NCBI RefSeq assembly: GCF_000296815.2
Contig: NZ_CAIT01000009.1
Coordinates: forward strand, 1,116,001 to 1,180,000
Source of the DNA: Fibrisoma limi BUZ 3
Lineage (GTDB): Bacteria; Bacteroidota; Bacteroidia; Cytophagales; Spirosomataceae
Direction of reading: 5' to 3'
DNA length: 64,000 bases
Shown: in pieces, positions 56,604 to 60,682 of the stretch
How positions within the stretch are numbered: position 1 is the stretch's first letter
Layout: each line of letters begins with the position of its first letter
Notes under the pieces: model-generated
What the model was told of the DNA's origin: nothing
Database searches by the model: none
What the model saw: the letters and a program-made list of their open reading frames with translations, nothing else
Made by a program: the position numbers and the translations under genes

Positions 56604-57662
56604 ATGACTTCCCCATTTCGACGCAACCGCTGCGCAATTGCTTTTATTACTTTCTGTGTTTCAGGTCTTTTATTGACTTCGTCTGCTCTGGCTCAATGGC
56701 AACCGCAGAACGTAGGGACCGATGCCAGCTTCCGGGCTGTCAGTGCCGCTAACGAAAAAGTTGTCTGGATTGGGGGTACCCGCGGTACGTTCGTTCACAC
56801 CAGCAACGGCGGTCAATCGTGGGAGCAGGGCCAGGTTCCCGGCGCCGACAGTTGCGACTTCCGCGATGTTCACGCCGTCGACGATCAGACGGCCTACCTG
56901 ATGAGCGCCGGACCGGCCGAAAAAGGCCAGGCACGTATCTACAAAACTACCGACGGTGGCCGGAACTGGACGCAGTTGTACGAAACCAAACAAGCGGGTG
57001 TCTTTTTCGATGGCATGGATTTCTGGGACAAACAGCACGGCATTGTGTTCAGCGATCCTCCGGCTAATGGCAAGTGGTTTATCCTGACGACCGACGACGG
57101 TGGAAAGACCTGGCAGCCCGTTCCGCCCGAAGCCTTGCCCGCTATGCAGCCGAACGAAGCCGCGTTTGCCGCCAGCGGTACCAGTCTGGTTGTTCAGGGC
57201 AAACGAAACGTGTGGATTGCCTCCGGTGGCGGTACGGTCGGCCGGGTTTTCCGCTCCACCGATCGGGGCAAAACCTGGGCCGTGAGTAATACACCGCTGC
57301 CTGCTGGTAGCGCAACGGGACTTTTTGGCCTTCGATTTTTTAACGAGAAGAACGGTATGGCTGTGGGTGGCAATTACCAGCAAACAACCCAGACCGGCCC
57401 AAACGCAGCCATCAGCCGCGATGGTGGCCGCACCTGGCAGGCCGTTTCCCCTACCGACCCGCCTGGCCTCAAAGAAGCCGTTGCGCTGCTGCCCGGCGAC
57501 CGGCTGCTGACCATTGGCCCATCAGGCAGCAGCATTTCCGCCGACCAGGGCCAAACCTGGCAGCGGCTGGACACCGAAGGCTTCCACGCGCTGGCCTGCG
57601 TAAAAGGCACTTGCTACGCCGTAGGGGCCAAAGGTAAAGTGGCGGTGCAGCGGTTCAAATGA
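56604..57662 (+). CDS. YCF48-related / BNR-repeat secreted protein
   Basis: A signal peptide (FITFCVSGLLLTSSALAQ) precedes a beta-propeller with BNR-type Asp-box repeats: TSNGGQSW, TTDGGRNW, TTDDGGKTW, STDRGKTW, SRDGGRTW and SADQGQTW, about six in all. This is the pattern of photosystem II assembly factor-like YCF48 proteins, which in non-photosynthetic bacteria are exported proteins of unknown role. It is 352 residues and starts 4 bases after the DUF2520 stop. Family assignment is secure; function is not. Confidence 0.85.
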   Translation: MTSPFRRNRCAIAFITFCVSGLLLTSSALAQWQPQNVGTDASFRAVSAANEKVVWIGGTRGTFVHTSNGGQSWEQGQVPGADSCDFRDVHAVDDQTAYLMSAGPAEKGQARIYKTTDGGRNWTQLYETKQAGVFFDGMDFWDKQHGIVFSDPPANGKWFILTTDDGGKTWQPVPPEALPAMQPNEAAFAASGTSLVVQGKRNVWIASGGGTVGRVFRSTDRGKTWAVSNTPLPAGSATGLFGLRFFNEKNGMAVGGNYQQTTQTGPNAAISRDGGRTWQAVSPTDPPGLKEAVALLPGDRLLTIGPSGSSISADQGQTWQRLDTEGFHALACVKGTCYAVGAKGKVAVQRFK

Positions 57663-59464: not shown

Positions 59465-60592
59465 ATGAACGTGAAAGCGGTTTTATACGTAACTACGCTC
59501 GTTTTAGGGGCAACCGGCTCTTTGTCAGCTCAAGCCCCGACCCGCCAGCCGATGCTGGTTTCCGAATCTTTTACCTGCAATTTCACCGGCGCGGCCGTGA
59601 ATCCGCAGGTTCTCTGTAACTACATGGCGTACACCTCCAATGGCCACGCCGAACGTGTTGTCGACCGGATCCTGAAGCCTATTGGGTTGCTGCGTAATTT
59701 TAAGATTATGGAGTGTGCCAATACCCAGAACTGCTTTGCTACGGTCGTGAAGGGGCAGCGGTTTATCATCTACGACGGTGCGTTTATGCAACGAATCGAA
59801 GATGCCACCGAAACCGACTGGTCGGCTATCAGCGTCATGGCGCACGAAATTGGCCACCACCTCCAGGGCCATACCATCGACGGAAAAGGCGGTCAACCGT
59901 TGAAAGAGATTGAAGCCGATAAGTTTTCGGGCTTTGTGCTACACCAGCTTGGAGCATCGCTTGACGAATCACTGGTAGCCATCAAGCTACTTGGTAATGA
60001 ACACGCCACCTCGACGCACCCGGCCAAACCCGCCCGTATCGAGGCAATCCGTAAAGGCTGGCTCGAAGCCGAAGAACTGTATCCGAAATGGAAATCGGCA
60101 AACAAACCGGCCGTAGCGACCGCGCCGAAACCCATTGCCGACGACGAAACTACTGTCTCAGCTCGCCCCACTACGCCTACTCGTACCAACACATCCGTCC
60201 GTACGGTTGGCTGCGTTTCCGGCGACTGTGAGGATGGCCGCGGGGTTTTCGTGTACCCCACCCGCGAGCGTTACGCCGGCGAATTTGAAGAAGGCGACAA
60301 ACACGGCGAAGGCACGGAATATTACGCCGATGGTAAGATTAAATACAAAGGCAACTTCCGCGACAACGTCCGTTCCGACTACGGTGTGTACTACTACCGC
60401 AATGGCGACCGCTACGCAGGCTGGTTCCAGAAGAACGTACCAAACGGCAAAGGCGTGTATTACTTCGCCGACGGGGACCGGTTTGTTGGCTACTTCAAAA
60501 ATGGGCAGCGCAACGGTCCGGGCATGCTTTACAACGCCGACGGCACCAAGGAAGAAGAAGGCGTCTACGAACAAGACCAGAAGGTGAGGTAA
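59465..60592 (+). CDS. Exported HExxH metalloprotease fused to MORN repeats
   Basis: A signal peptide (MNVKAVLYVTTLVLGATGSLS-A-QA) leads into a peptidase domain of the M48-like type: a membrane-proximal segment, then HEIGHH with zinc ligands His127 and His131 and catalytic Glu128, and a downstream EIEADKFSG (Glu150) as the likely third ligand. A Pro- and Thr-rich linker at about 205-250 follows. From about 255 to the end there are four or five MORN repeats (FVYPTRERYAGEFEEG, KYKGNFRDN, DRYAGWFQKNVPNGKG, DRFVGYFKNGQRNGPG). MORN repeats usually bind lipids or proteins. The pairing of a peptidase with MORN repeats is unusual. It ends 5 bases before a 37-bp perfect hairpin. Confidence 0.8.
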   Translation: MNVKAVLYVTTLVLGATGSLSAQAPTRQPMLVSESFTCNFTGAAVNPQVLCNYMAYTSNGHAERVVDRILKPIGLLRNFKIMECANTQNCFATVVKGQRFIIYDGAFMQRIEDATETDWSAISVMAHEIGHHLQGHTIDGKGGQPLKEIEADKFSGFVLHQLGASLDESLVAIKLLGNEHATSTHPAKPARIEAIRKGWLEAEELYPKWKSANKPAVATAPKPIADDETTVSARPTTPTRTNTSVRTVGCVSGDCEDGRGVFVYPTRERYAGEFEEGDKHGEGTEYYADGKIKYKGNFRDNVRSDYGVYYYRNGDRYAGWFQKNVPNGKGVYYFADGDRFVGYFKNGQRNGPGMLYNADGTKEEEGVYEQDQKVR

Positions 60593-60597
60593 AAAAA

Positions 60598-60682
60598 AGG
60601 AGAAAAGGAGGAAGGGTAGGAAAGGAGAAAGGAAACTGTAGCGGCTTCCTTTCTCCTTTCCTACCCTTCCTCCTTTTCTCCT
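60598..60682. repeat. Perfect 37-bp gene-junction hairpin (AGGA family)
   Basis: The arms 60598-60634 and 60646-60682 are exact reverse complements over 37 bases with an 11-base loop. The left arm is pure purine except one T (AGGAGAAAAGGAGGAAGGG and on). The plus strand shows eight A residues just before it, giving a T-tract for the minus direction. It separates convergent genes: 5 bases from the MORN gene stop and directly against the rocD stop. The sequence is similar to 20559-20640. Confidence 0.95.

Follow-up and report, generated by a model that had tools for sequence, protein, structure and literature searches.

A predicted exported M48 zinc peptidase with a C-terminal MORN domain in Fibrisoma limi and related Spirosomataceae

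The closest described counterpart of the protein analyzed in this study is BepA (YfgC) of E. coli, an exported periplasmic M48 peptidase with an HExxH motif, a Glu ligand, an HPx4R plug and a TPR domain that follows the peptidase domain. The plug motif of BepA extends from H246, the fourth zinc ligand, to R252; the plug occupies the substrate site, and function requires it to move; the TPR domain, which has a docking role, binds the BAM complex (PMC7950410). Three E. coli sister enzymes are without TPR, and the M48 enzymes of this organism are recognized by the pattern HExxH-x(30,140)-HPx4R (PMC7950410). MORN repeats, in turn, are considered a protein-protein module according to a study of TbMORN1 (PMC7725318). 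Here, a gene of 375 codons plus stop (59465..60592, forward strand, as are all features of this gene given below), located in a 64,000-nucleotide stretch of the Fibrisoma limi BUZ 3 genome (the window; contig NZ_CAIT01000009.1, positions 1,116,001 to 1,180,000), was found to encode, as judged from its sequence, a zinc peptidase that is exported, belongs to the well-known M48 (BepA-like) family and ends in a MORN tail.

The window protein resembles BepA in its predicted export, in the HExxH, Glu-ligand and HPx4R elements and in its domain order (M48, then a repeat domain), and BepA structures (6ait, 6sar) are its best fold matches. It differs from BepA in carrying MORN in place of TPR (none was detected by Pfam in the window protein), in a disordered linker without a comparable element in BepA, and in sequence, with about 19–20% identity over the aligned part. 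With MORN and no TPR, the window protein would thus at most function in the manner of BepA, without being BepA itself; since four further M48 genes with stronger matches are present in the same genome, where the gene itself is single-copy, it need not perform BepA's job. Two other comparisons cover one half of the protein each. A compact putative Zn peptidase of Geobacter (Q74D82; 3c37) shares the small M48 domain, but with 15% identity and a match limited to the peptidase domain. Eukaryotic MORN proteins (MORN1, MORN4, junctophilins, RSPH1) share the MORN fold, with up to 37% identity in the aligned repeats, but they are devoid of a peptidase and of bacterial signal-peptide export, and some have many more repeats.

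The layout of the gene agrees with the first-pass annotation, which had described an exported zinc peptidase joined through a Pro/Thr-rich linker to four or five MORN repeats. A single ORF contains a predicted Sec signal peptide (residues 1–22, 59465..59530; MNVKAVLYVTTLVLGATGSLSA, with predicted cleavage before Q in the context LSA/Q), which has a plain signal-peptidase-I look and whose shape, with its AQ end, recurs in most orthologues. The M48 domain (approximately residues 33–208, 59561..60088; PF01435, E 1.9e-8, 34.8 bits vs. a curated cut-off of 20.3) and the C-terminal MORN domain (residues 249–375, 60209..60589; PF02493, E 1.5e-16) are the sole Pfam matches above cut-off. The MORN domain comprises about five repeats, four stretches of which are matched by PF02493, and carries a C250/C255 pair in its first repeat. 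The intervening linker (residues 209–248, 60089..60208) is rich in Thr, Ala and Pro (9, 6 and 5 residues, respectively) and is among the least conserved stretches, with 10–49% identity in orthologues outside the genus. A scan of NCBIfam yielded no name for the window protein or for the five relatives scanned alongside, and the neutral Zn peptidase YpfJ and LIC20035 adhesin families were rejected with scores far under cut-off. Downstream lies a convergent class-III aminotransferase gene, and the gap between the two genes (60598-60682) contains a perfect 37-nt inverted repeat with an 11-nt loop and arms of almost pure purine/pyrimidine. Near copies of the arm (2–3 mismatches) at two other genome sites show that this intergenic element is repeated in the genome, where it may act as a terminator.

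The catalytic signature of the M48 domain is complete and strongly conserved. In an alignment of 95 relatives, the zinc motif HEIGH (59843..59857), with H127, E128 and H131 at the positions given by the first-pass annotation, is invariant, as are H132, H136 and both E148 and D152 of the EIEAD motif (residues 148–152, 59906..59920), where E148 is the probable third zinc ligand by analogy with BepA. The candidate active-site plug HPAKPAR (HPx4R, residues 185–191, 60017..60037) retains H185 in 94 of the 95 sequences and P186 and R191 in all of them, suggesting, again by comparison with BepA, autoinhibition of the peptidase. In other sets, HExxH is retained in 126 of 128 non-identical relatives, the HExxH-x(30,140)-HPx4R pattern is shared by the window protein and 127 of 131 relatives, and PF01435 is matched in 41 of 45 relatives. 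A chance occurrence of HExxH can be ruled out because the full M48 signature is conserved. Two cysteine pairs, C84/C90 and C250/C255, are kept in the MORN group (both cysteines of the latter in all 48 members of the A2 alignment with letters there), which is compatible with an oxidizing compartment.

An AlphaFold2 model built on the 95-row alignment (pLDDT 82 overall) predicts the two domains, with most peptidase helices and MORN strands above 90 and the linker below 50 over residues 221–243, falling to about 42 at its lowest; with a pTM of only 0.55, the placement of the two domains relative to each other is not predicted. The modeled peptidase part adopts an M48 fold, as judged from its PDB matches to BepA (6ait, Z 11.5, rmsd 4.2, 167 aligned residues), followed by 6sar (Z 11.3) and 3c37 (Z 11.1), all above BlaR1 and ZMPSTE24; the same top three matches (BepA, 3c37) were obtained for a relative with a different tail. 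The C-terminal part combines tandem 23-residue repeats with GxG (PF02493) and, in the model, a row of beta-hairpins spanning residues 249 to 369 (pLDDT mostly above 92), and matches MORN structures with Z of 16, best of all MORN4 (6jle, Z 16.3, rmsd 1.5 over 118).

A search for the same domain order, as proposed in the first-pass annotation, recovered the MORN fusion across Spirosomataceae and in Siphonobacter. By counts taken from the genome match table, some match was present in 103 of 150 Spirosomataceae genomes and a strong peptidase match in 99, all but one of which (98) also had a MORN match. The possibility of an assembly artefact, raised by the same annotation, is ruled out by two observations: the frame is unbroken in the window, and Fibrisoma montanum has a copy that is 94% identical. 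Identity drops from peptidase to MORN to linker (e.g., 86, 63 and 24% in L100), the peptidase part being under the strongest constraint. The gene is absent from several Spirosomataceae genera (g13, g17 and most of g32) and is thus dispensable. In a quick tree, the Spirosomataceae MORN proteins form one group (support 98) and those of Siphonobacter another (support 100); the forks between the two groups are weak, and the remaining members that fall there are weakly placed. A GCxxGxC first repeat common to both groups makes a single gain of MORN plausible for them, whereas the repeats of L041, a member of another class, are different and may reflect a separate gain; on this quick tree, one origin for all MORN fusions is not upheld. 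Overall, M48 and MORN form a genuine and old pairing that is conserved across a single bacterial family. Two individual loci deserve mention: in Fibrella aquatilis (L113 5980-6789), the frame breaks within the MORN part and the peptidase domain is intact, and a locus titled Flavobacterium sp. SUN052 (L102) encodes a protein (63% identical to the window protein) and a neighbor that are both of the Rudanella type, groups with Rudanella-like rows in the tree and is probably mislabeled.

The peptidase domain, which has received little study, is found without MORN in other Bacteroidota, Pseudomonadota and Acidobacteriota, joined to a variety of other C-terminal modules. In 30 Pseudomonadota proteins (titled "TPM domain-containing protein"), whose peptidase domain is 37–45% identical to that of the window protein and which share its motifs, signal peptide and linker, the tail consists of a TPM domain plus another conserved region; a literature search for a TPM domain with a metalloprotease found no paper. 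The commonest sister tail, a beta tail termed C2 present in 22 Bacteroidota proteins, matched small beta-barrels such as protease inhibitors, although weakly (best Z about 5). Further tails include Lcl_C, YARHG, TPR (at the MORN position in two relatives, L121 and L045), a DUF7477 domain, a Cds6_C-like domain and Cys-rich repeats. BLAST clustering resolved 23 tail clusters (a few of them cut fragments), and the tails other than MORN are mostly extracytoplasmic or repeat modules. Among individual tails, a Hyphomonadaceae relative (L119 5944-7635) carries about ten Cys-rich repeats of the form CxWANDGECDEPxLCxPGTDTxDC, and a Rhizobiaceae relative (L147 523-2622) carries four long near-identical repeats (RNIWVxIxxxxRRxxVCRxLxEGGMNVDCxP...) with no Pfam name. 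Three loci (L036, L125, L137) contain two tandem peptidase-type genes, one of which, in L125 and L137, is without the full M48 motif set, suggesting by its sequence a pseudo-enzyme partner. A phage search gave no match to the protein, so that a phage origin was set aside, and a plasmid search returned relatives of single parts, none covering 80%. We tentatively propose, as a possibility that falls somewhat short of probable, that these peptidases form a widespread, as yet unnamed branch of exported M48 enzymes, in which a plug-regulated catalytic domain is constant and the C-terminal module is exchanged by lineage (MORN, TPM, TPR, YARHG, Lcl_C, small beta-barrel and others), the tail deciding the envelope site and MORN serving as a recruiting module.

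By analogy with BepA, the window protein may be a periplasmic, plug-regulated quality-control M48 peptidase in which the MORN tail serves to recruit a protein partner; this is the likeliest of the readings considered, and we assign it about an even chance. Sec would export the protein to the periplasm, where it would fold as a compact soluble metallopeptidase, with zinc bound by H127, H131 and E148, and E128 acting as the general base. At rest, H185 of the plug would probably occupy the fourth zinc position, as H246 does in BepA, and block the cleft until substrate presentation shifts the plug. The MORN domain, held by the flexible linker where BepA has TPR, would most likely recruit an envelope partner or client, which would restrict the cleavage of unfolded or stalled envelope proteins to the places where the tail positions the enzyme. 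The recruiting role is suggested by the BepA analogy, where the TPR cavity docks on BAM, and by the presence of TPR at the same place in two relatives; the MORN domain is read as protein-binding rather than lipid-binding because of the TbMORN1 study (PMC7725318).

Other roles of the MORN tail have to be weighed against this one. The first-pass annotation had envisaged a membrane-docked protease, and a lipid-binding tail by which the peptidase docks on either the inner or the outer membrane would accord with the MORN name, which refers to membrane proximity (junctophilins), and with the binding of single phospholipids by TbMORN1. However, the study that reported this binding found that TbMORN1 bound neither membranes nor vesicles (PMC7725318), contrary to the docking proposal, and the MORN part of the window protein has a net charge of −3 and shows no surplus of basic residues that could meet lipid head groups; we therefore consider lipid docking unlikely. 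A tail that dimerizes the enzyme or caps its active site, with activity set by oligomeric state and not by a recruited partner, seems similarly improbable: MORN1 structures do pair via their C-termini (PMC7725318), MORN is C-terminal here too and MORN1 dimers are among the best MORN structure matches, but several Spirosoma orthologues (L083, L091, L093) have lost the last repeat or retain it in degenerate form, which makes a conserved C-terminal interface doubtful.

The gene neighborhood and the export signal bear on two further alternatives. An exported beta-propeller gene of the YCF48/BNR type (56604..57662, forward strand; PF14870, E 8.2e-14), identified by synteny as a possible partner only, has its counterpart in Rudanella and most Spirosoma directly upstream of the peptidase gene, in tandem and with a frame gap of about 170 bases or less, and both proteins begin with a signal peptide. 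That the peptidase is dedicated to maturing or degrading this propeller is nevertheless quite unlikely, given that three opposite-strand genes (Crp, DoxX and SnoaL) separate the two in the window and that distant orthologues (L029-L034, Siphonobacter) have no propeller neighbor within the stretch examined. Moreover, synteny within the genus spans the whole block, including the aminotransferase gene, so that it says little about a functional link, and the genes may be adjacent simply through linkage. A role as an extracellular protease, in nutrition or antagonism, is very unlikely, although export and the resemblance of the relatives' variable tails to those of secreted proteins could be cited for it. 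The window protein contains no lipobox and, by Pfam, no T9SS sorting domain, MORN running to residue 369, and the gene, single-copy in this genome, is kept across Spirosomataceae, with neither a phage nor a full-length plasmid match. The same absence of a lipobox and a T9SS tail, together with the plain signal-peptidase-I type of signal peptide, speaks against the surface localization suggested by the first-pass annotation.

The first-pass annotation did not recognize this domain combination as described. Our literature search, with most subscription journals outside its coverage, likewise found no paper on an M48-MORN protein; the peptidase, though, is an ordinary M48 enzyme, and the annotation missed this family assignment, the plug that suggests autoinhibition and the place of MORN as one among many tails. 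The plug of M48 enzymes is understood, unlike the substrate choice of most of them. With one catalytic domain naturally joined to many tails, a conserved branch of this kind makes direct tests by tail removal or exchange possible, and the bacterial MORN domain gains a concrete setting, which is a rarity.
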